This document shows, one piece after another, positions 6,708 to 42,332 of a stretch of 42,332 nt of DNA. The stretch comes from Candidatus Aenigmatarchaeota archaeon. GTDB taxonomy: Archaea; Aenigmatarchaeota; Aenigmatarchaeia; GW2011-AR5. The notes beneath the pieces are model-generated. The model was not told the DNA's origin, searched no databases, and worked only from the letters and a program-made list of their open reading frames with translations. Both the position numbers and the translations under genes were made by a program. Location of the stretch: contig JACPRW010000007.1 in the NCBI GenBank assembly GCA_016193585.1, positions 1 through 42,332 of the forward strand, written 5' to 3'. How positions within the stretch are numbered: the stretch's first letter is position 1; every line of letters begins with the position of its first letter.

Positions 6708-6761
6708 TACATGTAGAAGCAATGCTTCTGCTGTACAGGTGGAACAGCGTTCCACCATGTA
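6708..6761. repeat. 54-nt double-hairpin element, copy 1 (fbp leader)
   Basis: TACAT, then GTAGAAGC-AAT-GCTTCTGC (one G-T pair), then TGTACA, then GGTGGAAC-AGC-GTTCCACC, then ATGTA. Both hairpins have 8-bp stems and 3-nt loops; the outer TACAT and ATGTA pair and the centre TGTACA is self-complementary. The copy at 42186-42239 has exactly the same length and layout but different stems. Confidence 0.85.
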
Positions 6762-6809
6762 CCTTGAAGAGTTGAGCTCTTCGAGGTCTCGGAAAGCAGT
6801 GCTTTCCGA
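6762..6809. repeat. Second-type hairpin pair in the fbp leader
   Basis: CCTTGAAGAG (6762-6771) pairs with CTCTTCGAGG (6777-6786, one wobble). TCGGAAAGC (6789-6797) pairs with GCTTTCCGA (6801-6809) around loop AGT. The skeleton TGAAGA..TCTTCGAGRTC..GCTTTCCG recurs at 23790-23836 with altered but still paired stems. The array ends about 11 nt before the Shine-Dalgarno-like GGTGGGG (6823-6829). Confidence 0.75.
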
Positions 6810-6834
6810 AGGCGACACCAGTGGTGGGGTATTT

Positions 6835-7911
6835 GTGAAGATAACGCTGAGCGCAATCAAGGCCGACATCGGCGGCGTCGGTGGGCATACGAAGCCAAGC
6901 GACGAGCTCGTCGATACGGTGAGAAAGATTGTTTCTGAAAGCAAGCTTCCTACTGATAGCTACGTTGGCTACACCGGCGATGACATTCATATTCTCATGA
7001 GCCATGACAAGGGCATCGGCAGTTCCGAAATCCACAAGCTCGCATTCGATGCCTTTATGGAAGGCACAGAGGTCGCAAAAAGCCAGGGACTGTATGGCGC
7101 AGGCCAGGATTTGCTCAAAACATCATTTTCCGGGAACGTGAAAGGGATGGGGCCCGGCGTTGCGGAAATGCAGTTTGAGGAGCGGCCGAACGAGGCGTTC
7201 GTTCTCCTTACTGCGGACAAGACCGAGCCGGGAGCATTTAACTTCCCGTTCTACCGCGTGTTCTGCGAGCCTTCTGCGAATACAGGCCTTCTGCTTAATC
7301 CAACACTTTCCAAGGGTGTCACCTTCCGCATCATGGACGTCATGGACGGCACAATAGCAGAACTCCGCACACCGGAAGACATATTCATGATAGCCGCAGT
7401 GCTGATGTACCCGGGAAGGTACGTCGTCGAGTCCGTATGGACAAAAGACAATGAGCCGGTGCTCGCAGCAACGACAGACCGCCTGCATAACATCGCAGGC
7501 ACGTACGTAGGAAAGGACGACCCGGCTGCACTCGTACGGCTGCAGAAGAATTTCCCCGCAACAGAGGAATTCTGCTCGGTTTTCAAAGTGGCGCATTATG
7601 TGGCCGGCAATACACGGGGAAGCCACCATGTGCCGCTCATGCCGGTGAAGCGCAATTCGCCGGCCAGCACAAACTTCTGCATACCTCTCGTGAGCTGCTC
7701 GCTCTTCAGCATGCACAACGGCATGTTTACCGGCCCGTTCGATGCCTTCGAAACCCCGGACTGGGATTACTATAGGAAGAGGGCCACAAAGAAAGCCGAC
7801 TTCATGCGCGAACAGGGCTTTGTGCATCCCGCCACGCTCATACCCGAGGAACTCGAGTACAACAAAGGATACCAGGCAATCATGGACCAGGTCAGGCAGC
7901 GTTTCAGGTAG
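6835..7911 (+). CDS. fbp: Archaeal fructose-1,6-bisphosphate aldolase/phosphatase
   Basis: Bifunctional gluconeogenic enzyme (class V FBPase): condenses DHAP and GAP and dephosphorylates FBP to fructose 6-phosphate. The protein begins VKITLSAIKADIGGVGGHT, contains ADKTEPGAFN (metal-binding region) and matches the family length at 358 residues. An in-frame codon at 6739 would add 32 residues, but these are encoded by the hairpin array and lack family resemblance. The GTG at 6835 has GGTGGGG just upstream and matches the conserved N-terminus. It leads an operon with pgk and gap. Confidence 0.95.
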   Translation: MKITLSAIKADIGGVGGHTKPSDELVDTVRKIVSESKLPTDSYVGYTGDDIHILMSHDKGIGSSEIHKLAFDAFMEGTEVAKSQGLYGAGQDLLKTSFSGNVKGMGPGVAEMQFEERPNEAFVLLTADKTEPGAFNFPFYRVFCEPSANTGLLLNPTLSKGVTFRIMDVMDGTIAELRTPEDIFMIAAVLMYPGRYVVESVWTKDNEPVLAATTDRLHNIAGTYVGKDDPAALVRLQKNFPATEEFCSVFKVAHYVAGNTRGSHHVPLMPVKRNSPASTNFCIPLVSCSLFSMHNGMFTGPFDAFETPDWDYYRKRATKKADFMREQGFVHPATLIPEELEYNKGYQAIMDQVRQRFR

Positions 7912-7946
7912 GTCCTCCTACAGGCGCGCGCGACAGGGTAGTGTGT

Positions 7947-9410
7947 ATGGTGAACCTCAGCGAACTCGCTACGCTCAACGATATCGATGAGAAGCAGATA
8001 CGCGGCCAGTCCGTGCTTCTGAGGACATCCTTCGACGCGTTCGACGAGCAGGGGCAGATCAAGGACGGCCTGCGCATCGAGACAGCTGAAGGTACTATCC
8101 GGATGCTCAAGCAGAAAGGCGCGCGGCGGATTATTATCATGACGTACGCGGGAAGGCCTGAGAAGGCGCCTGCAAAGGAGCCGAAACTTGGCGATAACGC
8201 GCGCTATGTTGGCGTGCTCTATGACAAGCGGTTCAGCCTCCGGCCGACAGCTGATTACCTGCATGGCCTTCTTAGGGAAAAAGTCCATTTCATTGCCGCA
8301 ATTGACGATGATGGCGAATTCTACGAAGATGCAGGCAGTTACATCAGCCACGCGGCAGAATACATCGAAAAGAAGGCGCGGAACGGCGACGTCGTGCTTC
8401 TGGACAACCTGCGCTTCTGGGAAGGGGAGAATAACGGTGACAAGGAAGTCGGGAAGGAATTCGCCCGGCTCATCGCTTCGCTTGGCACCGTGTACGTGCA
8501 GGACGGCTTTGCGCAGGCGCACCGCGTGAACAACGCAACCGTGGGAGAGATAACGAGGCACGTGAAAATCAAAATACTTGGTCTGCAGTTCAAGAAGGAA
8601 ATCGAGTACCTCAGGAGCATTTTCGACAACCTCCTCGAGCGTGACCGGAAGCCGTTCATATTCATCATCGGCGGAAAAAAGATAGAAACCAAGCCTGGAA
8701 TCGTTTCAAAAATAGAGGTAGCAAGCAAGCTCATGGATAACATGCAGCCCAAGGACAGCATTTTCGTTGGTGGCGCCATGGCATATCCATTTCTCATCGC
8801 GCACGAGTACCTCGAATACGTGAAGCAGGGAAAGGACGCGCTGGTGGCGCACGCCCGTGGCAAGCAAATCAAGGGCATCGTCGGCGATTCGTACCTCGAA
8901 TGGGAGCAGGTGCACGACCAAGTAATGGTAGCGGGGTCGATGCTGTTGAAGGCTGAATCGAAGCGCATCGAGGTACAGCTGCCCGTCGACCACGGCGTAT
9001 TCGCCATCGGCGCAAAAAAGCCCGAAGTGTTCTATGTCGACAAGATTTCCGAGGGCATGGTTGCCGGCGACATAGGACCAAAGACCGTGGAATTGTGGAG
9101 CCGCAGCCTGAAAGGCGCGCATACCATCCTGCTTGCAGGGCCGGTCGGATGGTACGAGAATGAGCTTTTCTCTGCGGGCAGCCTCGGCATCGTCGAGGCG
9201 ACAGCGGCGGAAACGCAGCAGAACGGCACTGTTTCTATCGCAGCCGGCGGCGACACCGCGGAAATGGTGAGGAGCTTCGGTTACGGCTACAAGCTTTCCC
9301 TCGTGTCGATAGGTGGAGGCGCGACGCTCGAGTTCCTGCTGCACGGCGGCCTGCCATCACTCGAGCTGCTCGACAGAAAGGAGACGGCGGAAAAGACGGT
9401 GGTCATGTGA
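7947..9410 (+). CDS. pgk: Phosphoglycerate kinase, long and divergent
   Basis: Interconverts 1,3-bisphosphoglycerate + ADP and 3-phosphoglycerate + ATP. Recognised by GARRIIIMTYAGRPEK, VLLDNLRFWEGE, VQDGFAQAHR, FIIGGKKIETK, LLAGPVGWYE and the C-terminal GGDTAEMV with SIGGGATLEFLLHG. It has about 487 residues, against roughly 400-415 usual. The extra length sits mainly at 90-125 and in the middle. The usual N-terminal RVDFN substrate motif is RTSFD here; the Arg is kept. The ATG at 7947 is preferred; a GTG at 7941 is possible. It overlaps gap by 4 nt. Confidence 0.93.
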   Translation: MVNLSELATLNDIDEKQIRGQSVLLRTSFDAFDEQGQIKDGLRIETAEGTIRMLKQKGARRIIIMTYAGRPEKAPAKEPKLGDNARYVGVLYDKRFSLRPTADYLHGLLREKVHFIAAIDDDGEFYEDAGSYISHAAEYIEKKARNGDVVLLDNLRFWEGENNGDKEVGKEFARLIASLGTVYVQDGFAQAHRVNNATVGEITRHVKIKILGLQFKKEIEYLRSIFDNLLERDRKPFIFIIGGKKIETKPGIVSKIEVASKLMDNMQPKDSIFVGGAMAYPFLIAHEYLEYVKQGKDALVAHARGKQIKGIVGDSYLEWEQVHDQVMVAGSMLLKAESKRIEVQLPVDHGVFAIGAKKPEVFYVDKISEGMVAGDIGPKTVELWSRSLKGAHTILLAGPVGWYENELFSAGSLGIVEATAAETQQNGTVSIAAGGDTAEMVRSFGYGYKLSLVSIGGGATLEFLLHGGLPSLELLDRKETAEKTVVM

Positions 9411-10426
9411 ACATATGCGTGAACGGTTACGGGACGATTGGCAAACGGGTTGCAGAAGCGTTAAGCGCACACCCGAAGCTCAGGCTGGTCGGCGCTTCGA
9501 AGTACACGCCTGACCAGGACGCGCGCCTTGCAAACATAAAAGGCATCCGGCTTTTCGTGCCCTCGGAGTCAATAAAGAATTTTGAGTCAAAGGGCATTGC
9601 CGTGTCCGGCAGCGTCGACGACATGATAGCGCAGGCAGACCTGGTCATTGACGCCTCGTCAGACGGCAAAGGACTAGCGAACAAGAACGGCGTATATCTT
9701 CCTCGCAGCAAACCGGCATTGTTTCAGGGAGGCGAAAGCGAGGATATCGCCGAAATGAGCTTCAACGCACGGAGCAATTTCGACGCCGCGAAAGGAAAGC
9801 GCTATGTTCGCGTCGTGAGCTGCAACACGACGGCGTACTGCCGCCTCCTCAAGCCGCTTGCCGAGCATTACACCATAAAGCATGTCGACGCATTTCTCAT
9901 ACGCCGCGGCGCGGACCCGAATGACGCAAAGGGTTCGGCGCTCAACGCGGTCGAGTGGAAGGCGAAAAGCCACCACGCGCATGACGTGCAGACGGTGATA
10001 CCGGCTATTTCTATAGCAAGCACCGCCTTCAAAGTGCCCCACACCATTGCGCACATCAACTCGATGAGCATACAGTTCGATGAGGTGCCAAGCAAGGATG
10101 CTATTGCAGAACTGTTCAGCAAGGAATCGCGTGTCGCAATGCTCAACAGCGCGACGACGAGCGCCCAGATAATGGAGGCAGCGCGCGACATCGGCGTGAA
10201 GCGGTACGATACCTACGCGGTGTCGCTGCTCATGAACACGCTGCAGGTCAACGGCAACAGCGCATTCATGTCATTCTTCGTGCCACAGGAATCCATTGTC
10301 GTGCCCGAAAACGTCGATGCGGTATGCGCGCACTTCGGCATGGGAAAACAGGAATCTATGAAGATAACTGACGACCTTCTTGGCATCGGCAGAATCAAGA
10401 AGGAACTTGAGGCCGTTTTCGCGTAG
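9407..10426 (+). CDS. gap: Glyceraldehyde-3-phosphate dehydrogenase, archaeal type II
   Basis: Phosphorylating NAD(P)-dependent enzyme of glycolysis and gluconeogenesis. Rossmann motif NGYGTIGKRVA at 6-16 and catalytic cysteine C139 in VVSCNTTAYCR. At 339 residues it has the normal length of the archaeal type II enzyme. It starts with GTG in the GTGA overlap with the pgk stop, so the two are translationally coupled. With fbp and pgk it forms the GAP-to-fructose-6-phosphate arm of gluconeogenesis. Confidence 0.96.
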   Translation: MNICVNGYGTIGKRVAEALSAHPKLRLVGASKYTPDQDARLANIKGIRLFVPSESIKNFESKGIAVSGSVDDMIAQADLVIDASSDGKGLANKNGVYLPRSKPALFQGGESEDIAEMSFNARSNFDAAKGKRYVRVVSCNTTAYCRLLKPLAEHYTIKHVDAFLIRRGADPNDAKGSALNAVEWKAKSHHAHDVQTVIPAISIASTAFKVPHTIAHINSMSIQFDEVPSKDAIAELFSKESRVAMLNSATTSAQIMEAARDIGVKRYDTYAVSLLMNTLQVNGNSAFMSFFVPQESIVVPENVDAVCAHFGMGKQESMKITDDLLGIGRIKKELEAVFA

Positions 10427-10452
10427 CGCCATGACTGGCGACGGCGGTGGAA

Positions 10453-11658
10453 ATGTTCTCGTTACCGAAATTTGACAGCGAGGTGGCAGCCCTTTTTTTC
10501 ATCACCTTCATTGTCGGCTCGAGCGTCAGCATGCTCGCGCCCCTGCTGCCTGAAATCAAGCAGGAGTTCGGCCTCTCCTACACCGCCGCCGCGCTCGTCT
10601 TTTCCTCGTACGGCATCGCTCGTCTCTTCCTGTCGCTGCCTGCAGGCTATGTATACAACCGCGTGAACAGGAAATTATTGCTCGCTTCCGGGCTCCTCCT
10701 CATGCTTGCGAGCTCCCTCATGGCATTCCGCGCATCGTCGTTCGCCGAATTCATCGCCTCCCAGGTCGTCATGGGAGCAGGGTTCTCGTTCTGCGTCACA
10801 ACGGTCATCATATCGCTGTCGGGGCTTTCGACGAAATCGAACCGGGGGAAGGTCATGGGTTCGAACACCTTCGCCCGCTCCGCCGCCGCGACCGTCGCTC
10901 CTGCCGCAGCCGGTTTCATCACTCTCTCGTTAGGCTGGCGGGCCGTGTACCTCTTCTATGTAATCGCCCTCGGCGCAGCACTCGTGGTCATGCACCGTTA
11001 CGCGAAACGGCAGATAACCGCAAGGGAAGAGCGCGAGCACGGCGGTAAAGGAGGGAATACCGGCATGCTGCTCGTGTTGTTCGTGGTAACCTTTCTCGCC
11101 ACGTTTTCGACTGCCGGCTTCAAGAGCAACGTTGTTCCGCTCTACGGCAGCGATGTGCTGCGGCTTGATACCGCGACCATCAGCATGGTGCTGTCGCTTA
11201 TGGCGTTCATGCACCTCGTGACGAGCCCGATAGCCGCATGGTATTCCGACAAGTACGGGAGGAGAATCTTTCTTCTCATCGGCCTTGCCGCGACGGCGCT
11301 CGGTTCGTTTGCACTGCTGTTCGCGGCAGATGTCGCGCTGCTCATCGCCGCCGCCGCGCTGCTCGGCGTCGGCACCATGATATTCGTGACGCCGCCCATT
11401 ATCATGGGTGACATAACGCCGCACCGCCAGGCCGGCAGGAACTACGGCATCCTCCGCTTCACGCAGGACCTCGGCTTCGTTGTCGGCCCGGTGCTGCTCG
11501 GTTATACGGTCGACACCTACGGTTTCGGCGCTGCGGCGCTTCTGACAGGTTTCCTGTCGCTTTTTGTCTTCGTGCTTGCGTATGTCGTCGTGAAGGAGCC
11601 GGAAACGCACGCGAAGCTCAACTGGAAGCGCATTCTGCAGATAGAGGCGGAGGACTAG
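10453..11658 (+). CDS. Major facilitator superfamily transporter
   Basis: About 401 residues with twelve predicted membrane helices. Two copies of the loop 2-3 signature are visible: GYVYNRVNRKLLLASG in the N-half and AWYSDKYGRRIFLLIG in the C-half. The central loop is charged (KRQITAREEREHGGKGG). The substrate cannot be told. It lies 26 nt after gap and may be co-transcribed with the gluconeogenic operon. The ATG at 10453 follows GGCGGTGG; GTG 10447 is an alternative. The stop overlaps that of the convergent O-methyltransferase by the 4 bases CTAG. Confidence 0.88.
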   Translation: MFSLPKFDSEVAALFFITFIVGSSVSMLAPLLPEIKQEFGLSYTAAALVFSSYGIARLFLSLPAGYVYNRVNRKLLLASGLLLMLASSLMAFRASSFAEFIASQVVMGAGFSFCVTTVIISLSGLSTKSNRGKVMGSNTFARSAAATVAPAAAGFITLSLGWRAVYLFYVIALGAALVVMHRYAKRQITAREEREHGGKGGNTGMLLVLFVVTFLATFSTAGFKSNVVPLYGSDVLRLDTATISMVLSLMAFMHLVTSPIAAWYSDKYGRRIFLLIGLAATALGSFALLFAADVALLIAAAALLGVGTMIFVTPPIIMGDITPHRQAGRNYGILRFTQDLGFVVGPVLLGYTVDTYGFGAAALLTGFLSLFVFVLAYVVVKEPETHAKLNWKRILQIEAED

Positions 11659-12197
11659 AGCCGCACGCTCACTTCCATGCCGTCGAAGCCGAAATCGTGG
11701 AACTCGCTTCTGTACATGCCTGAATTCCGGACGTGGGCAAGGTAGTCTTTCATTTCGGCTGCAAAGATTTTCGCATTATCCGCAACGATAACAGTAGCAG
11801 GGTGCATCTTCACCTCGCACAGCAGGAGGTAGTCGAGGTATGCTGATTTGGCCGCGTCGATGAAGATGAAATCAAATTTTTCTTTCAGATTTGGCATTGT
11901 TTCTGTTGCATCGCCTACGAGCACTTCTATTCTGTCAGCCAGGCCTGCCCGCCCTATATTTCGTTCAGCTTCTTTGGCATGCTGCGCGCTCTGTTCAATG
12001 GTCGTGATGCGCGCTGTGCTGTTGGCAGCCATAAGAATTGCGGAATAGCCGACGAGCGTGCCGATTTCAAGGATGCGCTTTGGCTTGTGCTTCCGGAGCA
12101 GGCGTATGAGCAGGCTCCCCTTTGCCTTGCCGACAATCGGCAGGAATTCGCTCTCAGCCCTGATTTCTATCTCTTTCAAAACCTTTCCTGCGTGCAT
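11655..12197 (-). CDS. Class I SAM-dependent O-methyltransferase (COMT-like)
   Basis: 180 residues. Motif I ILEIGTLVGYSAILMA, motif with acidic ITTIEQSAQHAKEAERNI, and FIFIDAAKSAYLDYLL are those of the small cation-dependent O-methyltransferase family (COG4122). The acceptor is unknown. Divergent from dinB across a 53-nt promoter region. Confidence 0.88.
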   Translation of the reverse strand: MHAGKVLKEIEIRAESEFLPIVGKAKGSLLIRLLRKHKPKRILEIGTLVGYSAILMAANSTARITTIEQSAQHAKEAERNIGRAGLADRIEVLVGDATETMPNLKEKFDFIFIDAAKSAYLDYLLLCEVKMHPATVIVADNAKIFAAEMKDYLAHVRNSGMYRSEFHDFGFDGMEVSVRL

Positions 12198-12250
12198 GCT
12201 ACATGCTTGATGGAAAGCATTTTTAAGATTGCCACGATGAGGTAGAGCAT

Positions 12251-13333
12251 ATGAGACGCATCATCATGCACGTTGATTTTGACTCCTTTTACGCCTCGCT
12301 GGAGGAGCAGCGGAAGCCTGAACTTGCGGGGAAGCCGGTTGTCGTCTGCATGTTCTCCGGCCGTTCGCGTGATTCGGGGGCAGTGGCAACGGCGAATTAC
12401 CGCGCACGGCAGCAGGGCATCGAGGCGGGCATGCCGATAGCTGCGGCGAAAAAGCTCGCGCCGGATGCGGCGTTCCTGCCTGCTGACCTTGACTACTATC
12501 GTGCCGCATCAGACCGCATCATGCAGTCGCTCGAAGCCGACGCCGACAGCTTCGAGCAGCGAAGCATCGACGAGGCATACCTCGACGTCAGCCAGCGGTG
12601 CAGTGACTTTGACGCGGCATACATGCTGGCAACGTCCATCAGGAGCCGCGTCAGGGAAAGCGAGGGCATCACCTGCAGCGTCGGCATAGCGCCGAACAAG
12701 CTCATTGCGAAGATGGCGTCCCGCTTCAAAAAGCCCGATGGTCTTACGGTGGTGAAGCCGGAAGAAGTTGTGGCGTTTATTGAGCCGATGCCGGTGGGCA
12801 AAACACACGGCATAGGCCCTAAAACAGAGCAGGTGCTGCACGAACTCGGCATACAAACGATAGGAGAACTTGCGTCATGTGATATGCACAGGCTTGAGGC
12901 AGTTTTCGGAGATAATAAAGCCCGTTTCCTCCATGATGCCTCCCGGGGAATCGATGCATCTCCCGTGCGTCAGGAGGAGCGGCAGCAGGTTTCCCGGATC
13001 GTGACGCTCAGGGAGGACACGAACAGCCTCGACGTCCTGTATCCGCAGATTGACATGCTTGCCGGTCTTGTGCACAGCAAACTGCGCGGCCAGCGTTTCA
13101 GGACAGTATCGATTCTGGTGATCACGCCGCAGCAGTCTCTGGTGACGAGGAACCGGACGCTCGCAGCTTACGAATCCGATGCTCACGCCATCTCGGTGAA
13201 TGCACGGAAGCTGCTGGAGGAATTCGTCGCAGCAAATCCGGCGACAGCACTGCGTCGCCTCGGCGTGCGGGTTGCTAATTTAGAAGAAGCAGCGGAATCG
13301 GGGCAGAAGACGCTGGCGAGTTATGGAATTTAA
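12251..13333 (+). CDS. dinB: Y-family DNA polymerase IV (Dpo4/DinB type)
   Basis: Translesion polymerase of 360 residues. Catalytic acidic residues D9 (MHVDFDSFYAS) and D107, E108 (SIDEAYLDV); steric-gate Tyr14; thumb helix-hairpin-helix VGKTHGIGPKTEQVL; little finger at about 240-345. The C-terminus ends QKTLASYGI, which resembles a PCNA-interacting peptide (Q-x-x-L-x-x-aromatic). GAGGTAG precedes the ATG as ribosome-binding site. Confidence 0.95.
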   Translation: MRRIIMHVDFDSFYASLEEQRKPELAGKPVVVCMFSGRSRDSGAVATANYRARQQGIEAGMPIAAAKKLAPDAAFLPADLDYYRAASDRIMQSLEADADSFEQRSIDEAYLDVSQRCSDFDAAYMLATSIRSRVRESEGITCSVGIAPNKLIAKMASRFKKPDGLTVVKPEEVVAFIEPMPVGKTHGIGPKTEQVLHELGIQTIGELASCDMHRLEAVFGDNKARFLHDASRGIDASPVRQEERQQVSRIVTLREDTNSLDVLYPQIDMLAGLVHSKLRGQRFRTVSILVITPQQSLVTRNRTLAAYESDAHAISVNARKLLEEFVAANPATALRRLGVRVANLEEAAESGQKTLASYGI

Positions 13334-13348
13334 ATAAGCCCCTGCACA

Positions 13349-14131: not shown

Positions 14132-14151
14132 GTCACCCATTTTTACACGAA

Positions 14152-14976: not shown

Positions 14977-15026
14977 GGCTGACGTAACAAGGTATTGTTT
15001 AAAAGTTTATAGGCAGATGTGGTACT

Positions 15027-16094: not shown

Positions 16095-16096
16095 AA

Positions 16097-16269
16097 TTAT
16101 CCGGTTTCTCCTGTTTTGTAAAGCTCCCCGGCAGCCGGCGTGAACGTATGGTCAGCTTGCCCTATGCGCGCTTTTTTGCCGGTTTTCGTCTCTTCCAGCA
16201 TGCGATGAAGATTTCCGTCCGGCATAGAATTCGCTGTATGCCATGCGCCAATTTGTTTAAGCTCTTTTT
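16097..16269 (-). other. Out-of-frame coding-like extension downstream of aTrm56
   Basis: Reading in the neighbouring frame from the run of five A (plus strand 16265-16269) continues for over 50 codons as KELKQIGAWHTANSMPDG and LEETKTGKKARIGQADHTF before a stop at 16097. It has no strong start codon of its own near its beginning. It could be a C-terminal extension of aTrm56 cut off by a one-base indel in the A-run, or a separate short gene starting at an internal ATG. Confidence 0.35.
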
Positions 16270-18946: not shown

Positions 18947-18953
18947 AATTGCT

Positions 18954-19050
18954 TATAGTGAAACCAGTAAATAATCTGGATATATTACAACTGGTTTCAC
19001 GTATAGCTCACAAGGAAATAATATCATGTTTGTCCCCTTGTAGAGCTATA
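18954..19050. repeat. TATA-palindrome elements, copies 4 and 5, between tRNA-Gln and the YbaK-like gene
   Basis: Copy 4: GTGAAACCAGT (18958-18968) pairs perfectly with ACTGGTTTCAC (18990-19000); loop AAATAATCTGG... Copy 5: TATAGCTC-ACAAGG (19002-19015) pairs with CCTTGT-A-GAGCTATA (19036-19050) with one bulged A; loop AAATAATATCATG... The right end CTATAAAAG (19046-19054) is a TATA box about 27 nt before the ATG at 19077, which predicts an almost leaderless mRNA. Confidence 0.8.
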
Positions 19051-19076
19051 AAAGAATAAGTTACAAGGTTTAAATA

Positions 19077-23684: not shown

Positions 23685-23887
23685 TATAGCAATACAAGGA
23701 AATAAACACGATATGAGGAGAATCGAAGATTCTCCTGTACAGGTGGATTCATGGAATCCACCTTGTATTACTTCCTTGTTTGCTATCTGTGAAGAACCGA
23801 GGTTCTTCGAGATCCCAGAGAGCTCGGCTTTCCGGGGATAGGTGAAGCAAATGTATAATATCGGTATTATTTATTTGCTTCACTATA
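23685..23887. repeat. Composite hairpin array upstream of thrS (modules A, B, C)
   Basis: Module A: ATAGCAATACAAGGAA (23686-23701) pairs with 23772-23786; inside are two hairpins, GGAGAATC-GAA-GATTCTCC (23717-23735) and a 9-bp stem with loop ATG (23742-23762), joined by TGTACA. Module B: GAAGAACC-GA-GGTTCTTC (23791-23808) and CCCAGAGAGC-TCG-GCTTTCCGGG (23814-23836). Module C: GTGAAGCAAAT (23842-23852) with ATTTGCTTCAC (23873-23883), loop GTATAATATCGG... The right end CTATAAAG (23883-23890) is a TATA box about 35 nt before thrS. Residues 23693-23786 recur inverted at 42239-42332. Confidence 0.88.
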
Positions 23888-23921
23888 AAGATAGACATGC
23901 AAGAGGAAAAGAGGAATACCA

Positions 23922-31782: not shown

Positions 31783-31814
31783 GCATCGTTGCTTCAGCAG
31801 TGCATGGCTTTTAT

Positions 31815-32993
31815 TCAAGAAAAATGCTCCCGTATCAGCTCCGCAGCCTGCTTCGTATCATCCAGTGATGGCACGAGCGCGAACCGCGCATAGGCATCGG
31901 CATACGCGGTATCGGTGAGCGCAAGCATCTTTCCGGGCGTGACATTGATGCCAACCTTGTTCTTTGCATCAAGCTGCAGCAGTTTCTTCGCAAAGCCCAT
32001 CGAATCGCCGACTTTCACCCATAGGTAAAACGCAGCTTCTGCCCAGTATTTCATGCCTGCCGCCTTGAGCGCGGCTGTCATGACATCCCTGCGCTTATTG
32101 TACATCTGCCTCATCGATTCCACGTGCTGCTCATCCTTCCATGCAGCTATCGCTGCCTCCTGTATCGCATTCGCCACGCCTGAATCAATCTGCGTCCGCA
32201 GGGTGCGGTAATGCCTGATGATGTCGGCGCCTCCGGCAGCAAACCCTATCCTGAGCCCTGTTGCATTGCTCCGTTTCGAGAGGGAATGGAAGATAACAAG
32301 GTTGCTCCAGTCGTCAGAAAATTCAAGGAGCGAGTGCGGCTTTTCATGTAGGTACATTTCCGTGTACGCCTCGTCGGACGCCATGATAACGTTGTGCTTC
32401 TGGGCGAGCTCTATGAGCTCCTCGAACAGTTTCTTTTTTGCAACGACAGTTGTCGGATTGTGCGGTGAGTTTATCCACATAAGCTGTATGTTTTTGTTAG
32501 CCTCAAGGAGCTGCTCTATTTCATGTACATCCGGAAGGAAATTGTTCTCTTCCCTCAGGTCGTAATAGACAGGAATGCCGCCTGCAAATACCGTTCCTGC
32601 CTTGTACGGCGGATAGCCTATCGAGGGCATGAGCACCGCATCGCCGGGGTTGATGAACGCAAACGGAAAGTGGAAGATTGCCTCCTTTGCCCCTGCGGTT
32701 GCGGTTATCTGCGTTTCGGGGTCGACACTGACCTGAAACCGCCGCTCAAGCCATTCAGATGCTGCTGTACGGAACTCTTTCATTCCAATGTAAGAAGGAT
32801 AGCCTGAGCGCGCATGCTTCTCGGCTCCCTGCTGCAGCCCCTTGATCGCGCCTTCGTACAAAGGATCAGTGGGGTCGCCGACGCCGAAGTCTATGATTCT
32901 GAACCCTTTCTGTGCTGCTGCTTCTTTCGCTTTGTCAACCTCTGCAAACGCATACGTCGAGAAGCGCTTCAGCCGTTCGCTTGACTCGATCAT
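31815..32993 (-). CDS. dapL: Class I PLP aminotransferase, probable LL-diaminopimelate aminotransferase
   Basis: 392 residues. PLP lysine K240 in FHSLSKRSNATGLRIG, NSPHNPT near 175-181, DEAYTEMY at 207-214. Context indicates the DapL route (tetrahydrodipicolinate to LL-DAP in one step): no dapC, dapD or dapE is present, while dapA, dapB, dapF and lysA are. It is the last gene of dapA-dapB-lysC-asd-dapL, 67 nt after asd. A general aromatic or aspartate aminotransferase remains possible. Confidence 0.85.
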   Translation of the reverse strand: MIESSERLKRFSTYAFAEVDKAKEAAAQKGFRIIDFGVGDPTDPLYEGAIKGLQQGAEKHARSGYPSYIGMKEFRTAASEWLERRFQVSVDPETQITATAGAKEAIFHFPFAFINPGDAVLMPSIGYPPYKAGTVFAGGIPVYYDLREENNFLPDVHEIEQLLEANKNIQLMWINSPHNPTTVVAKKKLFEELIELAQKHNVIMASDEAYTEMYLHEKPHSLLEFSDDWSNLVIFHSLSKRSNATGLRIGFAAGGADIIRHYRTLRTQIDSGVANAIQEAAIAAWKDEQHVESMRQMYNKRRDVMTAALKAAGMKYWAEAAFYLWVKVGDSMGFAKKLLQLDAKNKVGINVTPGKMLALTDTAYADAYARFALVPSLDDTKQAAELIREHFS

Positions 32994-33060
32994 CGAGATA
33001 CCCTCATGCCCTGCATGTGTCGCTTCGCTCTATCCATGCATCGCATCCCATTTTACACGT

Positions 33061-35451: not shown

Positions 35452-35492
35452 ACGAAGAACCCATGATTTCCTTGTGGAAGCATAAGAACCAG

Positions 35493-36239
35493 TTACGTGA
35501 AAAAGTCGCCCATAAAATCCTGCATGGTGTAAAATCCCCGCTTGTTGCGTATCCACTGTGCAGCGAGCAGAGCTCCCAGTGCAAACCCTGCCCTGCTCCG
35601 GGCGGTGTGCGTCAGTTCTATGGTGTCGGCTTCGCTGTCAAATCCGACGACATGCGTTCCGGGTATGTACCCTGCCCGGAAGCTTGCTATGTGCAGTTCC
35701 TCGGGGAGTATGCGCCTGTCGAGCCGGTCAAAGACAGGTTTTTTCTTCCGTTCGATGTTTTTGATGAGGAGGTCGCCGAGCGCCTTTGCCGTTCCTGACG
35801 GGGAGTCTATTTTTTTGTTGTGATGGCCTTCGTACACGAATGCATCATAATCGCTGACCTTGTCAAAGAGCTGCGCCGCCTTTTCGGTGATGGTAAAGAA
35901 GAGGTTCACCCCAAGGGAAAAATTAGGGCTGTAGATGCACCCTATGTTGTGTTCCTGCACGGTTTTTTTTACCTCCTCAAGAGAATCGTACCATCCTGTT
36001 GTGCCAACAACCATATTTTTTCCGATGTCCGCTGCGCTGCGTACATGGTCGGCAACAGCATCAGGTACAGAGAAGTCTATCGCAACATCAGCGTGAGCGA
36101 GCGCGTCTGCGCTTACCGTGGTATGAGTTGCTGCTTGGGCTGTTGGGTCTATGATAGCGCTTACGGTCATGCCCCTTTCCTTGGCAAGGCGCGCCAGCTC
36201 ATGTCCCATCTTCCCGTAACCGATAAGGGCTATATTCAT
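35493..36239 (-). CDS. dapB: 4-Hydroxy-tetrahydrodipicolinate reductase
   Basis: NIALIGYGKMGHELARLA at the N-terminus binds NAD(P)H; catalytic region YEGHHNKKIDSPSGTA; VVGTTGW. 248 residues from ATG 36239, which is 25 nt after the dapA stop; an upstream in-frame start at 36272 overlaps dapA and is less likely. Second step of the DAP pathway. Confidence 0.95.
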   Translation of the reverse strand: MNIALIGYGKMGHELARLAKERGMTVSAIIDPTAQAATHTTVSADALAHADVAIDFSVPDAVADHVRSAADIGKNMVVGTTGWYDSLEEVKKTVQEHNIGCIYSPNFSLGVNLFFTITEKAAQLFDKVSDYDAFVYEGHHNKKIDSPSGTAKALGDLLIKNIERKKKPVFDRLDRRILPEELHIASFRAGYIPGTHVVGFDSEADTIELTHTARSRAGFALGALLAAQWIRNKRGFYTMQDFMGDFFT

Positions 36240-36264
36240 GAGAACCACGGCAACACAACGAGGC

Positions 36265-37152
36265 TCACGCAATGGTAAGTTCCTGGTACTGCCTGAGTAC
36301 CGCTTTTAATTTTTCAGCATTCTGCGGCTGCAGCTCGCACAGCGGCAGCCTGCAGCCTCCGGCAGGCATGCCGGCAAAGTTCATGGCGGCCTTGATGGGC
36401 ATGGGATTTGTCTCTATGAACGCGGTCTTGAAGATGGGCATCAGTTTGTAATGAAGTTTTCTCGCGCTTTCGAAATCGCCTTTCAGTGCATGCGAAACCA
36501 TATCCGAAACCATCCGCGGAAACAGGTTGCTGACGACTGAAATCACGCCTCTCCCCCCTGCTGCTATCAGGGGAAGCGTCATGTTGTCGTCCCCGCTCAG
36601 CACGATGAAATCTTTTGGCAGTTGCGCGATGACGTCCATCATCTGGCTGATGCTTCCCGAAGCTTCCTTGACAGCACGCACGTTGGTTAATCCGCTCATC
36701 CTGAGGAGCGTTGGTGTCTCTATGTTGACTCCTGTCCTTCCCTGAATATTATAAACAATGACGGGCATGGCAACAGCATCGTTGACTGCCTTGAAGTGCC
36801 GGTAGAGGCCTTCCTGCGTCGGCTTGTTGTAATAAGGCGAGACGATGAGCACGGCGTCTGCGCCCAGATCCTTCGCCTGTCTGGCATATTTTATCGTCTT
36901 TTCCGTGGAGTTTGTTCCTGCGCCGACAATCACGGCAGCCTTGCCGTTCGCTTCGTCAACAACCGCAGAAACAATCTTTTCCCGCTCATCGTCGGTTATC
37001 GTGGGCGACTCGCCGGTCGTGCCCAACGGCACAAGCCCGGAAACGCCGTTTGCTATCTGGAACCGAACGTTCTCGCGAAGGCCGGCATAATCCACACCGA
37101 GCGCCGTGTCAAACGGCGTTACCAACGCGGTGATGCAACCTTCAATGCGCAC
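36265..37152 (-). CDS. dapA: 4-Hydroxy-tetrahydrodipicolinate synthase
   Basis: Condenses pyruvate and aspartate semialdehyde, the first committed lysine step. Schiff-base K162 in RAVKEASGSISQ, Y134 in VIVYNIQGRTG, GTTGESPT at 44-51 and SPYYNKPTQEGL. 295 residues, start GTG 37152. First gene of a five-gene operon. A TATA box TTTAAATAA (minus, 37191-37183) lies about 35 nt upstream. Confidence 0.96.
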   Translation of the reverse strand: MRIEGCITALVTPFDTALGVDYAGLRENVRFQIANGVSGLVPLGTTGESPTITDDEREKIVSAVVDEANGKAAVIVGAGTNSTEKTIKYARQAKDLGADAVLIVSPYYNKPTQEGLYRHFKAVNDAVAMPVIVYNIQGRTGVNIETPTLLRMSGLTNVRAVKEASGSISQMMDVIAQLPKDFIVLSGDDNMTLPLIAAGGRGVISVVSNLFPRMVSDMVSHALKGDFESARKLHYKLMPIFKTAFIETNPMPIKAAMNFAGMPAGGCRLPLCELQPQNAEKLKAVLRQYQELTIA

Positions 37153-37182
37153 TCAAACACCCAATATATTCTTGCAAGGTAA

Positions 37183-37217
37183 TTATTTAAAGTTTATTAT
37201 TCGTAATTAATTTACGA
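37183..37217. promoter_or_regulatory. Divergent dapA/Lrp promoter with candidate Lrp-type operator
   Basis: The dapA TATA box (37191-37183, minus) lies next to the near-palindrome TCGTAATTAATTTACGA (37201-37217), with a second inverted AT-rich word ATATTCGAAAATAT (37217-37230) following. AT-rich palindromes of this kind are typical Lrp/AsnC sites. Their position between dapA and the regulator gene suggests lysine-responsive control, by analogy with LysM-type regulators; this is inference. Confidence 0.5.
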
Positions 37218-37261
37218 TATTCGAAAATATGTGCAGTGATGCTTTTGGACGGGTGACGCGT

Positions 37262-37657
37262 ATGGACGACATTGATACGAAGCTGCTGGGCATGTTGAAA
37301 AAGGATTCGAGGAGGAGTTTTGTCACGATGGCAGAGCAGCTCGGCGTAACCGAAGGGACGGTGCGCAACAGGGTCAAGGAGATGATGCAAGCCGGCGAGA
37401 TTAAAAGATTCACCATAAAAACCAAGGCAGGCATGGAGGCGCTTGTCTTTGTCAAGGCGCAGCGTACAAACCTCAGGGGCATTGTGCAGGAGTTGGAAAA
37501 AATAGCCGACGATCTCTATGAAATTTCAGGCGATTATGATATTGTGGTGCGTATAGAAGCTGATTCTTTGAAAGGCCTGAACGAAAAAGTTGACTCCATA
37601 CGGGAAATAAAGGGCATCGCCGCAACGAGCACCGCGGTAAAACTCGCCCAGAAATAG
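37262..37657 (+). CDS. Lrp/AsnC-family transcriptional regulator
   Basis: 131 residues from ATG 37262 (DDIDTKLLGMLKKDSRRSF). Helix-turn-helix MAEQLGVTEGTVRNRVKEMMQAGEI at 24-48, then the RAM effector domain with DLYEISGDYDIVVRIEA. Divergent from the dap operon, so a lysine-responsive regulator is likely. A start at 37229 would place the operator inside the gene. Confidence 0.9.
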   Translation: MDDIDTKLLGMLKKDSRRSFVTMAEQLGVTEGTVRNRVKEMMQAGEIKRFTIKTKAGMEALVFVKAQRTNLRGIVQELEKIADDLYEISGDYDIVVRIEADSLKGLNEKVDSIREIKGIAATSTAVKLAQK

Positions 37658-37692
37658 CAGGGCTATTAAAGTTTTGCTCCTCAGGTAGATTG

Positions 37693-38346
37693 ATGGTTCT
37701 CGGCCAGTTCGACGGGCTCGCCGCTGCCATCCTGGCGTTCATCAAGGCGCATGGCGCGCTTGCGGTGTTCATCGGCGTGCTGCTTGAGGAAATCATCATC
37801 CCGATACCGTCCTTTGCCATCCTCATGAGCGCCGGATTTTTCATCGTCCCTGCCGGCGCGCCGCTCGCCGAAGCGCTGCAGATAATATTACTCGTCATCG
37901 TCATACCCGCTTCCATCGGCGCGACCATCGGCGCGTTCTTCCCTTATGCGATAGGCTACTACGGCGGCAGGCGCATCATCACCAAAATTGAGCGTTTCGT
38001 CGATTTCTCGTGGAGGGATGTCGAGAAGGCAGGCGACAGGCTGGAAAAGGAAAGGAACATGTGGATAGGCCTGGTTGTTGCGCGGGCAATCATCATCGTC
38101 CCCATGTCGGTCGTTTCCGTTGCCGCGGGCACGCTGCGGCTCTCGTGGCGGCATTTTGCAATCACCACGTTCATCGGCTCGGTGCCGCGGGCGTTCCTGC
38201 TCGCATTCCTGGGCTGGAAGTTCGGCGCCACCTATACGACATTCCTCGAAGGGTTCGGCCTTGTAGAGCAGCTCATGGTTCTGGCAATACTTTCTGCCGG
38301 AGGCTACCTGATGTACCGCCATCTCAAGCGGCGTGTTGTCGGATAG
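37693..38346 (+). CDS. DedA-family membrane protein
   Basis: 217 residues. LEEIIIPIPSFAILMSAGFF near the N-terminus and GLVVARAIIIVPMSVVSVAAGTLRLSWRHF, the DedA arginine/proline/glycine segment, followed by FIGSVPRAFLLAFLGWKFG. Four to five membrane helices with a re-entrant loop. Family members act in lipid scrambling and membrane homeostasis. Starts 35 nt after the Lrp gene. Confidence 0.88.
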   Translation: MVLGQFDGLAAAILAFIKAHGALAVFIGVLLEEIIIPIPSFAILMSAGFFIVPAGAPLAEALQIILLVIVIPASIGATIGAFFPYAIGYYGGRRIITKIERFVDFSWRDVEKAGDRLEKERNMWIGLVVARAIIIVPMSVVSVAAGTLRLSWRHFAITTFIGSVPRAFLLAFLGWKFGATYTTFLEGFGLVEQLMVLAILSAGGYLMYRHLKRRVVG

Positions 38347-38381
38347 GGTTTCTAGCGCACTTCGATTCCGTTGCTGCAAGC

Positions 38382-38390
38382 TTTTTATAC
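38382..38390 (+). promoter_or_regulatory. TATA box of the microprotein/FGE-like unit
   Basis: TTTTTATAC would place the transcription start near 38412, downstream of an ATG at 38400 and upstream of the microprotein start at 38488. Confidence 0.45.
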
Positions 38391-38487
38391 CTTCCGGTGA
38401 TGGTAAAAACAGAAAGGGCTGAAGCAGAATGGCTTGCGACACGTCGCCGTGGCAGCCTCAATGAAAACATGAAAGGTGTAGGACATT

Positions 38488-38571
38488 ATGAAATGCGCGC
38501 AGTGTGCAAAAAACGAAGCTGACAAGAAAACCGGGCTGTGCATAGACTGCACGTTCGAGAGCGGATACTGA
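38488..38571 (+). CDS. 27-residue zinc-finger microprotein
   Basis: The ORF reads MKCAQCAKNEADKK then TGLCIDCTFESGY: two CxxC pairs (C3/C6, C18/C21) 12 residues apart, a complete single zinc knuckle. GGTGTAGG lies 6-13 nt upstream as ribosome-binding site. The next gene starts 23 nt after its stop, so both are probably in one transcript. Its small size means it would be missed by usual length cut-offs. Single-knuckle proteins of this kind are often nucleic-acid or protein binders; the role here is unknown. Confidence 0.65.
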   Translation: MKCAQCAKNEADKKTGLCIDCTFESGY

Positions 38572-38594
38572 ACGTTCCCCATGAGGCCGACGCA

Positions 38595-39380
38595 ATGACT
38601 ACAAAGGCACCACCATGGATTCATGTTCCGGCACTGATGGACGGAAGCAACGTAGTTGTCCCTCAGTTCTGGCTGGGCGAAGATGTTGAATACAGACGAG
38701 ATGGAAGGTGTGCGCTTTCTCCGGCTGGATACAATTCTCGGATGCAATTGCCTACACTGGCAGAATTACGGTATGCTTATTGTGGCAGGAATCCTGACGG
38801 ATCTTTTGTTTCTCCTGATTACAAGCAGAGCGTTCGTTCTATGCGTGGCCGTGGCGAATGGACATCTACATTCCTGCGCGATGGAAGAGAAGCAATAGAA
38901 AATCCTGAAAATTTTGTTTGCAGGAACGGCATTTGGGTAGTCGAAGGCGGAAAAGTGAGTCCTGTAGAGCTGCCGCCTGACGGCTGGACGCTTGAATACG
39001 ACAAGCCTACCGGCTTCCCAAGCAGAACATCACAGGAGAGAAGAAACGCTGAGGGAGTCTTCGGCAATGATGCTTCATACTTTTACAGAAATACGAGAGG
39101 TGTAAGGGCCGTGTTGCGGAACTTCGGCCTCAACGACAGCGGGCCGTTCTACGTCAACGCGAGCTACGGGCCTGCTGACGGGGATTCGTACGTCGGTGCG
39201 CGTTCGTGCCGAAGAGAGCCAGACACACGAAATGCGTCAGTCGACGTTGGGCAATCCATGGAGCGCCGTGCGTTACCTGTGTACGCAATGGGTCAGGCAG
39301 AATACGATGCACTGCTACAGCTGGCTCAGGGAAACCCTCAGTTAGAAGAAATTCTCTCCCGGATCAGAAGACAGGCATAA
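38595..39380 (+). CDS. Uncharacterised protein with FGE-sulfatase/C-type-lectin-like features
   Basis: 261 residues from ATG 38595; upstream in-frame start 38538 lies within the microprotein gene. LPTLAELRYAYCGRN resembles the RLPTEAEWE-type helix of formylglycine-generating-enzyme-like domains; RGEWTSTFLRDG resembles their WEWTS motif; RGVRAVLRNFGLND their G-F-R-V strand. Catalytic cysteines of true FGE are not seen, so it is more likely a binding or structural member of the fold. No signal peptide. Confidence 0.5.
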   Translation: MTTKAPPWIHVPALMDGSNVVVPQFWLGEDVEYRRDGRCALSPAGYNSRMQLPTLAELRYAYCGRNPDGSFVSPDYKQSVRSMRGRGEWTSTFLRDGREAIENPENFVCRNGIWVVEGGKVSPVELPPDGWTLEYDKPTGFPSRTSQERRNAEGVFGNDASYFYRNTRGVRAVLRNFGLNDSGPFYVNASYGPADGDSYVGARSCRREPDTRNASVDVGQSMERRALPVYAMGQAEYDALLQLAQGNPQLEEILSRIRRQA

Positions 39381-39411
39381 ACATACAGCCAAGCGGGCGC
39401 CCGCTGTGCTG

Positions 39412-39636
39412 CTAGGCCGGGGCTTTTTCACGGAGCAACCGCGCCAGCGTCGTCTGGAATTCCTTGTCCTCTTCCGCGAACGAGCCTCTCAGGATGCGCA
39501 GGTCGTGCTCTTTCTTTTTTCTCAGGGTGATGAACTGCAGTATTTTGCTGTGGAGCTTTTCCATTTCGGTGTCAATGAGGTCTATCTCCCGTTCAAGCCT
39601 CGCTATTTCACGGTGCATTTCCTCTTCGAGTGGCAT
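39412..39636 (-). CDS. Small coiled-coil protein
   Basis: 74 residues, heptad-like pattern from MHREIARLEREIDLIDTEMEKLHSKI onward, two helices separated near residue 40. Charged and soluble. Function unknown; such short archaeal coiled coils can be prefoldin-like or partner subunits. Confidence 0.6.
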   Translation of the reverse strand: MPLEEEMHREIARLEREIDLIDTEMEKLHSKILQFITLRKKKEHDLRILRGSFAEEDKEFQTTLARLLREKAPA

Positions 39637-39699
39637 AAGAATCGCTCTCGCCAGAATACATATACCAATAAACGTATGGAGACGAAGGGTTTTAAGGTT

Positions 39700-41250
39700 T
39701 CATTGTAGGTTTTTTTCCATGTAAAAACCGTTCAAGGTGTAGCCGAGCTTTCGGTAATATTCCCGTGCGCCGACGCCGCTCGTCACGGTTATTTTTTCCT
39801 TCCCGTGTTCGCGCGCGATGCGCTCGGCTTCTTCCATAAGCCGCTTTCCCAAACCCATGTGCTGGTAGCCGCCATGTGTGCTGATGGGCACCATCCGGCC
39901 GTACACATGAAGCTCGCGTATTTTTGCCGTATCGCTGGCGTCTATCCTGAGGCGGAGGAATGCAACAAGCACGTTGCCGGTGAAGCTCAGGAAGATTTCC
40001 TTCCCGCCTGAAGCTTCATATTCGATTGAGGTGAGCTGTACGTTAGCAGCTTGCTGCGTGCCGACTTCCCTGCAGCGTATGCACAGGCAGCGCAGCCCGA
40101 GCTTGTCCATTTTCTCATGCGCGAGCTGTCGGATATTTGTCGTCTTCGCACCGCTCTCGACCGCTTTTTCCGATATGTCGCGCGAGACGCGCTTTATCCT
40201 GACGTAGCGCGGCACGTTTTTCTTCAGTTCGATGAGCAGGTCTATCGCCTGTTCCGAGGTGAGCGGCGCGTACCTCCCCTGTTTCCACAGATTATAGAGT
40301 TCTGTGCCCGGAATAACAAGGACCGGATATATCTTGAGTTCATCAGGCCGGTATGCAGCGTTGTCGAACAGTTCCTTGAACATCGCGATTTCTTTTTCAG
40401 TATCAATCGCTCCGTGCAAGCCCGTGAGTCCCGGCATCCAGTGAGCGGTCACCTTGAGCCCTGCGTCTTTAAGCAGTTTGAATGCACGCATGTTTTCTGC
40501 AGCAGTATGGCCACGCTTCGTAATCTTCAGGAGTTCTTCGTCTGTCGACTGCACGCCGATTTCAACGCGCGTTGCGCCATAGCCGAGCATTTCCTTGATA
40601 TGATAATCCCTGCAATAATCAGCGCGCGTTTCTATGGTGAGGCCGATGACGCGGCTGGCTGCAGTTTCGTTGGCGCGTTGGGCTTCTTCCATCGCTGATG
40701 CCTCTTTTCCGTTGAATGCCTCATAGCAGCGCTTGATGAACGCATCGCGCTTCTCCTTCCGCCACGCCATGAAGGTGCCTCCCATGACGATGAGCTCGCA
40801 CTTGTCGGTCGCATGGCCGATTGCGTGCAATTGCCTGAGCCTGTTGGTGATCTGGAGATAAGGGTCATAGTTATTGCGGATTGCACGGAGCGTCGTCGGC
40901 TCGACGCCGATGTAGCTTTTCGGCGCATTGCTGCCTTGAGGACAATAGACGCATTCAAAAGGACATGAGTACGGCTTGCCGCCCACGAGCAGATTGTCGA
41001 GCCACATGACCGCGATGTTGGCGACGCCGGAAAGCGTCCGCACCGGCTTGGTCCTGAGGAACTGCACAAGCCCGTCGTTTTTGTCGAGCCGGGATATGAG
41101 ATCGGCATTCCTGATGACGTCGCCGATGCCGTATTTCTTGGCGACGTGTATTTTTTCCCGTTCAAACATTTCATGGCTGGTTATTTTCCCGTTCCTGAGT
41201 TTTGCAATAAGCTCGTCTGCTGCGGCATTTTTGTTGTCGGCGAGTAGCAT
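39700..41250 (-). CDS. elp3: Elp3-type tRNA uridine carboxymethylase
   Basis: 516 residues. Radical SAM cluster C96, C100, C103 (CPFECVYCP) with GVEPTTLRA and GATRVEIGVQS; zinc/linker cysteines LRCLCIRCREVG at about 383-392; C-terminal GNAT acetyltransferase from about 410 with GGYQHMGLGKRLMEEAERIA as acetyl-CoA site. Acts on U34 of tRNA to form the cm5U-type modification. The order and length are those of archaeal Elp3. Confidence 0.95.
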   Translation of the reverse strand: MLLADNKNAAADELIAKLRNGKITSHEMFEREKIHVAKKYGIGDVIRNADLISRLDKNDGLVQFLRTKPVRTLSGVANIAVMWLDNLLVGGKPYSCPFECVYCPQGSNAPKSYIGVEPTTLRAIRNNYDPYLQITNRLRQLHAIGHATDKCELIVMGGTFMAWRKEKRDAFIKRCYEAFNGKEASAMEEAQRANETAASRVIGLTIETRADYCRDYHIKEMLGYGATRVEIGVQSTDEELLKITKRGHTAAENMRAFKLLKDAGLKVTAHWMPGLTGLHGAIDTEKEIAMFKELFDNAAYRPDELKIYPVLVIPGTELYNLWKQGRYAPLTSEQAIDLLIELKKNVPRYVRIKRVSRDISEKAVESGAKTTNIRQLAHEKMDKLGLRCLCIRCREVGTQQAANVQLTSIEYEASGGKEIFLSFTGNVLVAFLRLRIDASDTAKIRELHVYGRMVPISTHGGYQHMGLGKRLMEEAERIAREHGKEKITVTSGVGAREYYRKLGYTLNGFYMEKNLQ

Positions 41251-41295
41251 GTCTATAGTTTCTCAGATATGATTAAAAATGAAGGAGATGGCGCA

Positions 41296-41973
41296 TCAGA
41301 TGTTCCACGGGTTGAGATGGGTGACACGCATTCCTTCATTCCGCAGGGCTGTTATCAAGCCGTAGCCGTCATCTGCGTGGTATGCCCCGATTCTCAGCAC
41401 CGGTCTCTGCGGGCCGTAGTCGCGGACTGTTCGTATGCGCTCTACCCAAATAGTTTCTCGCTCCCTTTGCAATGCTTCGTATTCCTCTGGCGTCAGCGGT
41501 TCGCCTCTCCTGTGCAATTGTTCAAAATACGGATTTTTGTCATCGAGGTAGCATAGGGGGATTCCTGAAGCGCGGCGTCGCGCATACGCAGCAGCAGGGT
41601 CTCTTGAAGGATTTCTCGCCCCTACTTGTTCGTTGCTGCCTTCGAGAAAAAAACCGTCAGGCTCAAGTAGTGTGTACAAGTGGAATTCCAGATACATGAT
41701 TTTTTTTCTTGCGCGCAAAATCCTCTTTGCCGCTCTCTGCAGGGAATCGTACCACACATGATAATTAACAGCCAATGAAATACTGCTTGCTGCGTACAGT
41801 GCAGTTCGTGCCAGTGCAGAAGAGTGAATTTCTCCAATAACATACAATTGCCCTCCTGATAATGCGAGTTCACGCATACTGTCCGGATGGCTGACTAACT
41901 GCCTCAGTGATTTGGTGTATTCACGCGCCTGAAGCTGAACCTTCATTACCATTATGATATCGTCTGCTTCCAT
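41296..41973 (-). CDS. Uncharacterised protein with TraB/Tiki/ChaN-like motifs
   Basis: 225 residues from ATG 41973, which has GTGGGG just upstream. LYVIGEIHSS (G47, H50), YLEFH (E96), RERETIWVERIR and LRIGAYHADDGYGLI at the C-terminus follow the order G-x-x-H, E, R-x-x-x-M/W, G-x-x-H of the TraB/Tiki/ChaN superfamily, which includes metalloproteases and haem-binding proteins. No membrane helix. Function unknown. The composite array at 42.1-42.3 kb lies upstream. Confidence 0.55.
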   Translation of the reverse strand: MEADDIIMVMKVQLQAREYTKSLRQLVSHPDSMRELALSGGQLYVIGEIHSSALARTALYAASSISLAVNYHVWYDSLQRAAKRILRARKKIMYLEFHLYTLLEPDGFFLEGSNEQVGARNPSRDPAAAYARRRASGIPLCYLDDKNPYFEQLHRRGEPLTPEEYEALQRERETIWVERIRTVRDYGPQRPVLRIGAYHADDGYGLITALRNEGMRVTHLNPWNI

Positions 41974-42137
41974 GTCATCCCCACAGTACCATGTTTCAAA
42001 ATGCCAATGGGTACTCAAGATAGGCGGCAACCCTCTCAATACCCCTCAAGAGGCGGCATCTGCGAATGCAATATGCGTATATATTTTATTTCTCATGGTA
42101 CAATTACACCTTTCCGATCAGTATGGAAAAAAGGATT

Positions 42138-42332
42138 TATAGTGAAACAAGAAAATAATATCGGCATATTGCTTCTTGTTTCACATACATGGTAAAGCAA
42201 AGCTTTACCTGTACAGGTGAAACGTTGTTTCACCATGTATAGCAAACAAGGAAGTAATACAAGGTGGATTCCATGAATCCACCTGTACAGGAGAATCTTC
42301 GATTCTCCTCGTATCGTGTTTATTTCCTTGTA
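42138..42332. repeat. Composite hairpin array at the right edge (modules C, B, A, inverted relative to the thrS copy)
   Basis: Module C: GTGAAACAAGAA (42142-42153) with TTCTTGTTTCAC (42173-42184), loop AATAATATCGGC..., minus-strand TATA box CTATAAATC at 42142-42134. Module B: 54-nt double hairpin 42186-42239 (TACAT; GGTAAAGC-AAA-GCTTTACC; TGTACA; GGTGAAAC-GTT-GTTTCACC; ATGTA). Module A: 42239-42332, the reverse complement of 23693-23786 with one mismatch, running off the window. 42040-42137 shows no convincing gene. Confidence 0.9.

Follow-up and report, generated by a model that had tools for sequence, protein, structure and literature searches.

The window analysed here, a stretch of 42,332 nucleotides that is contig 6 of a 10-contig Candidatus Aenigmatarchaeota genome of 1.17 Mb, carries at two places a short element of the same architecture, which raises the question of what kind of element this is and how it came to lie in both. 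An earlier note, made from the letters alone, had read the layout TACAT-N19-TGTACA-N19-ATGTA at 6708-6761 and 42186-42239, with stems that differ in sequence and still pair. Both statements hold: the layout is exact in the two elements, and all four 8-3-8 stems pair, with a single G-T pair in stem 1 of the 6708 element and three perfect stems besides (the 42186 element being read as its reverse complement). The element at 6708..6761 (subfamily 2, stems GTAGAAGC + GGTGGAAC) lies at a TA within a hairpin array, and the one at 42186..42239 (subfamily 1, stems GGTAAAGC + GGTGAAAC) within the linker that joins the two hairpins of a long unit. They are the only matches to the layout in the window at up to 3 mismatches, compared with a mean of 0.06 and a maximum of 1 in dinucleotide shuffles. 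Each 54-mer consists of two head-to-head hairpins joined by a palindromic linker and has TA at both bounds, so that its layout is its own mirror image, symmetric under reverse complementation. A third module, at 23.7 kb, had been described as having the same hairpin pair; it is indeed joined by TGTACA, and its measurements are different (23712..23767, 56 nt, outer ends TATGA/TTGTA, second stem 9-3-9). We refer to it below as U4.

Whether the stems are maintained by compensating changes was examined with 18 distinct copies. These are related sequences, and since the pattern used to choose them prescribes the linkers, linker constancy is partly a matter of choice, while the stems were left free. 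Standard pairs fill 98.3% of the 288 pair cells, and two-sided changes are found in 11 of the 16 stem pairs (48 such cells); none of 500 shuffles reaches the observed values, and pairing falls to 35-48% when the stem partners are slid against each other. The earlier proposal of a structural family with compensating stems is thus borne out. It had left the choice between DNA cruciform and RNA undecided, and here the mirror symmetry favours DNA. Covariation of this strength is also what would be seen if the hairpins were selected as structured RNA, or copied through RNA as proposed for the mitochondrial elements of Allomyces, for which the accessible parts of one report suggest RNA intermediates (PMC2800124). 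We consider this improbable. Reverse-complement symmetry is not required of an RNA made from one strand, no Rfam match was found in the window at gathering thresholds, and the TA duplication described below is unlike what the same source states of Allomyces. One-sided changes are also few, with 6 G-T pairs and 5 mismatches among the 288 positions (11 non-Watson-Crick in total, scored on one listed strand per copy); this is a weak point, since either strand could be the sense strand and the G-T count therefore cannot decide between DNA and RNA.

The stems have a further feature in common. In the majority of hairpins the outer side is interrupted, 3-4 pairs above the foot, by a single unpaired base, and the same is observed in families with other linkers. 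The scan covered 78 distinct neighbouring pairs of short hairpins (156 hairpins, many of them near variants of one another): at least 3 pairs resume past a single outer base in 91/156 hairpins and past a single inner base in 15/156, while none (0/156) resumes past a one-by-one mismatch. When the TGTACA family is left out, the corresponding values are 51/112, 13/112 and 0/112, so that the outer bulge is present in a good part of the other families and not in all of them. The linkers vary (TGTACA, GTGCAC, GTAC, TGCA, ATCT and others), as do, in step with them, the lower stems. In 43 distinct TACA...TGTA elements (83 of the 86 hairpins counted), the bulged base is T or A on the 5' side and A, T or C on the 3' side; since the extra base varies, it is the position of the bulge that is kept and not the letter. 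This bears on a neutral account in which template switching at palindromes corrects one arm from the other, with no selection on shape. The low proportion of non-Watson-Crick positions is in line with such upkeep, both in the set above and in a wider one (16/670, leaving out 3/86 hairpins with more mismatches). Arm correction should however erase the outer bulge, and yet the bulge recurs at one place in several families; the linker and the element length are kept as well, although partly because the search patterns require both. Neutral upkeep therefore seems to us a rather unlikely explanation.

The search proposed by the earlier note, for which absence of the pattern elsewhere would have spoken against a family, shows that relatives carry the element. 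The exact pattern occurs in 8 of 97 genomes, the present one included, and the control read backwards gave no exact match in any of the 97. A refined pattern, with purine/pyrimidine limits added, was found in 19 stretches from 7 assemblies among 84,980 prokaryote genomes, a collection from which the records of the present genome may be missing; all are Candidatus Aenigmatarchaeota. A shape model (a covariance model of the 18 distinct copies) matched 21 of 156 genomes of the phylum at E <= 1e-4, all from one class. The load among relatives runs from zero to at least 28 matched places (in G020), and four genomes of one genus, G014, G017, G018 and G008, gave 37, 23, 32 and 1 matches, counted on both strands. 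These per-genome counts are rough, as an element can match on both strands and scoring had a limit of 37 candidates per genome. Viral contigs searched with two patterns gave no match.

Within its own genome the element has 16 copies at up to one mismatch (14 exact, 2 with one mismatch). The count was kept to 0-1 mismatch; with as many as 3 mismatches allowed, the pattern gave 18 matches and the reversed control 11. Two 3-mismatch matches which by eye are not self-complementary were dropped, and one truncated and one internally deleted copy on contig 7 were left uncounted. Fourteen of the 16 belong to one subfamily and always adjoin a long hairpin, U2, which indicates that they probably go back to one insertion that was then amplified within a composite. 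The remaining two, including the one at 6708, have their right-hand host in common. Overlap of the 54-mer with a mechanical ORF of at least 80 aa, seen for 14 of 36 copies, was not taken as coding. Several contigs of this genome (C2, C4, C6, C7 and C9) begin or end within these repeats, so the assembly was probably broken by the repeats, and the true number of copies may be higher.

The surroundings of the elements are made up of further hairpin units. The 6708 element sits in a host array, ATGGGATA ... GGGGTATT, at 6702..6834 on the plus strand, immediately upstream of the GTG at 6835 that starts FBPase. The 42186 element is flanked on its left by the long hairpin U1 (TATAGTGAAACAAG...CTTGTTTCAC, 42137..42187) and on its right by U2, which is cut by the contig end (42238..42332) and holds in its loop a nested 56-nt double hairpin (about 42258..42313), an inverted copy of the 23.7 kb module lying beside the second 54-mer. 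At 23.7 kb the same units recur in another arrangement: U2 (23685..23786) encloses U4 in its loop, a loop that at other places of the genome is empty and has a single TA, and a 57-nt double hairpin with a GATC-type linker (U5, 23784..23840) lies between U2 and a further U1 (GTGAAGCAAAT...ATTTGCTTCAC-TATAA, 23842..23888). The U1-U2 unit is also present without a nested element (18953..19052, about 100 bp), its empty linker differing by a single mismatch from the empty site predicted from one filled context. A 98-bp long two-hairpin unit at 4996..5093, TATAG-hairpin-CTATAG-hairpin-TATA, has loops that are empty here and, by eye, filled elsewhere. A different hairpin repeat, also dispersed, has a variable middle between the ends ATCCCGAATGCCTTG / CAAGGCATTCAAGAT and is found at 4054-4117 of the window and in four other places of the genome.

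For the empty-site comparison, the flanks of filled copies were joined by a single TA and the resulting 20 nt were sought elsewhere in the loci. Ten contexts of the 54-mer from its own genome gave 3 exact single-TA empty sites, and 6 within 2 mismatches; the exact ones are two linkers of U1-U2 long units and the 6708 site, whose empty counterpart, AGAATGGGA-TA-CCTTGAAGA, is located in the same genome (G000:C5, about 187131). Among fifteen contexts from other genomes, none had an exact empty site and 2 had one within 2 mismatches. U4, which sits in the U2 loop, behaves alike (9 contexts, 3 exact empty sites, 7 within 2 mismatches), and the same loop is occupied by another double hairpin, U7, whose best empty site has 1 mismatch. 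U5 and U6 gave no single-TA empty site in the loci searched, and by eye both split TATA without duplicating TA. In the long units, by eye, a TA duplication distinguishes filled copies from empty ones. In a comparison of G014 with G017, G018 and G008, a composite of ~145 bp present in G014 appears by eye to be absent from G017 at a TA, a case which carries little weight because the intergenic DNA is too diverged for clean alignment. The 54-mer is thus short and multi-copy, has inverted terminal symmetry and shows a TA target duplication, as TA-target MITEs do.

Copies are also found mostly inside or against other hairpins. Of the 57 TACA...TGTA elements (53-57 nt) that have distinct flanks, 41 are nested in another hairpin or directly abut one (scored by exactly matching arms of 8 bases), vs 18.1% of 5,416 control TA sites, which lie at a distance of over 250 nt from any element and not within ORFs of 100 aa; the remaining 16 did not pass this test. 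Fisher's test gives a p of about 2e-18 with copies treated as independent, which the 57 are not, as composites were amplified. This stricter test replaced a laxer one (31/36 copies vs 44.5% of non-ORF TA sites in the same element-rich loci). Long two-hairpin units of 94-102 bp, with the form TATAG-hairpin-CTATAG-hairpin-CTATA, are frequent among the hosts. Independent insertions are clearer across genomes, for example in the hairpin loops of G006 and in the loops and linkers of G020. One host unit (G000:C5:145755, 94-98 bp) matches two IS630-family ends of G020 at 24/29 and 27/29 positions, as against 16-18 of 29 for three shuffled versions of one end sought in 18,324 b. The two G020 ends are on different contigs, with gene pieces overlapping at 100%. 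Because its ends match an IS630-family element of G020, at least this long host family is, judged by sequence, an IS630-type MITE. Hairpin arrays in G020 also border or cut off IS630 gene pieces. A match to a known insertion-sequence end had been named as something that would speak against a separate family; the 54-mer itself matched none, among the few IS630 ends compared, and it is only a longer host-hairpin family that does so.

From the TA-bounded empty sites and the repeated nesting, it is likely that the element spread by transposition. Our main reading, to which we give a probability of roughly 0.6, sees in the 54-mer a MITE-like mobile element of Aenigmatarchaeota, non-autonomous and TA-inserting, that is transposed in trans and read as folded DNA. 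It would enter at a TA and duplicate it; most of these sites would lie in the loops of hairpins belonging to other small elements or at the hinge that joins two such hairpins, and the composites of nested elements would then spread as wholes. A transposase or recombinase may act on it in trans, probably with DNA as its substrate, and may recognise the folded hairpins, single-stranded or as a cruciform, rather than the sequence. The variable stems, the recurring bulge and the mirror-symmetric layout suggest that the folded DNA is read, perhaps from either strand or as a cruciform. More tentatively, there could be a class of mobile DNA defined by shape, in which bulged hairpin pairs are read folded by an archaeal enzyme with a preference for TA at the hinges and loops of hairpin elements; if so, this would be a class whose members stack inside one another.

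The search for the enzyme covered four transposase families (Y1, IS630 DDE_3, DDE_Tnp_1 and TnpB PF07282), none of which is present in every genome with copies. The p-values given here are uncorrected and ignore the relatedness of the genomes, and absence of a gene from the own genome is not proof, since that genome is 90.75% complete. An ordinary IS630/Tc1-mariner MITE, that is, an element with very short terminal inverted repeats moved by double-stranded cut-and-paste and with hairpins as a by-product of palindromic ends, is a possible alternative, though we hold it to be clearly less probable than the main reading. It agrees with the TA target and its duplication, with the host family matching the IS630 ends of a relative, and with the IS630 gene pieces of G020, which has at least 28 matched places. 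On the other hand, DDE_3 was found in 4/31 genomes overall, 3/18 with elements vs 1/13 without, and not in the own genome, on which grounds IS630 was rejected as the sole mover; the ends of the 54-mer are unlike the few IS630 ends seen; and a transposase that reads sequence leaves the variable stems and the bulge geometry shared across families unexplained.

A REP/BIME-like system, in which a Y1 (HUH) transposase reads bulged single-stranded hairpins, is in our estimation unlikely. Y1 enzymes are not expected to duplicate a TA. Y1 genes are somewhat commoner in genomes with elements (9/21 vs 6/38 without, Fisher p 0.03), which makes this reading slightly more probable, yet none was found in 12 of the 21, and they are likewise absent from the own genome and from G014, G030 and G026, all three rich in matches. 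In having two inverted, bulged hairpins on a fixed foot, the element itself resembles a BIME, and the accessible text on the E. coli RAYT describes recognition of single-stranded REP DNA, with REP elements in inverted pairs of short hairpins, some of them bulged (PMC3733652). The present elements differ in having no GTAG foot and in their TA duplication, and membership of the REP/BIME-RAYT systems was rejected on the lack of a Y1 gene in the own genome. DDE_Tnp_1 is present there, and in 10/18 genomes with elements vs 2/13 without (p 0.03), and so is kept as a candidate mover, but no inverted repeat of at least 9 bases was found within 300 nt on either side of the own gene. The excess of Y1 and DDE_Tnp_1 in genomes with elements may reflect only a general mobile load. 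The TnpB domain PF07282 goes the other way (4/18 with vs 8/13 without, and absent from the own genome).

Compared with known systems, the likeness in form to the double-hairpin elements (DHE) of fungal mitochondria that had been remarked on is supported, two tandem hairpins being present. The elements of Allomyces mitochondria are likewise described with two hairpins and evidence for mobility, and flanking duplications are reported to be lacking there (PMC2800124); the elements described here are instead in an archaeal chromosome and have a TA duplication, mirror-image outer bulges and a palindromic linker. The palindromes of Volvox organelles are, in the text available, about 50 nt long and often inserted into one another; they differ in being described as palindromes that fold into hairpins with loops of 3-5 nt, often TAAA/TTTA, and in having no fixed pair layout (PMC2670323). 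Among bacterial MITEs, RUP, Correia/NEMIS and ERIC are given in the accessible sections of one source as shorter than 200 bp, most with terminal TA and target duplication, and RUP is tied there to IS630-Spn1 (PMC2229807). At least one long host-unit family is of this kind, whereas the 54-mer is shorter than the elements described in these sections, has two hairpins with recurring bulges and matches no IS end. In the parts seen of the open-licence literature on Aenigmatarchaeota/Aenigmarchaeota, DPANN or archaeal repeats, no description of these elements was found. With them, the mitochondrial double-hairpin elements gain a counterpart in archaea, and the covariation together with the recurring bulge gives a measurable case of a tiny mobile element that can keep its shape while its sequence changes. 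It also follows that DPANN genomes of ~1 Mb can carry many nested selfish repeats. The range of match loads among relatives forms a natural set for an enzyme hunt and for the question of the folded-DNA substrate.

A second hairpin family, ATGGGATAC ... GGGGTATT/GGGCATT, was observed directly before the likely start codons of several genes, among them FBPase, an aminotransferase and what is by eye a ribosomal protein S17e-like start. In the window it is found at 6702-6834 and, on the minus strand, at about 32998-33051 before ORF 31815-32993; elsewhere in the genome it is found on G000:C3 (about 305950-306000, 328945-329030 and 329615-329700), G000:C5 (about 187131) and G000:C8 (about 20695). 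Another copy, ATGGGATACC...GGGGTATT, at about 660-780 of locus L005 (G000:C3, about 237750-237870), occupies by eye the intron position of a tRNA-like sequence on the opposite strand; ARAGORN run on this locus called no tRNA at the suspected intron-bearing tRNA. In G020:C7 (locus L096, about 1380-1545), short hairpin inserts, AACCAAATCC...GGATTTGGTTAT, are seen by eye within a glutamyl-tRNA synthetase-like gene, perhaps in frame.
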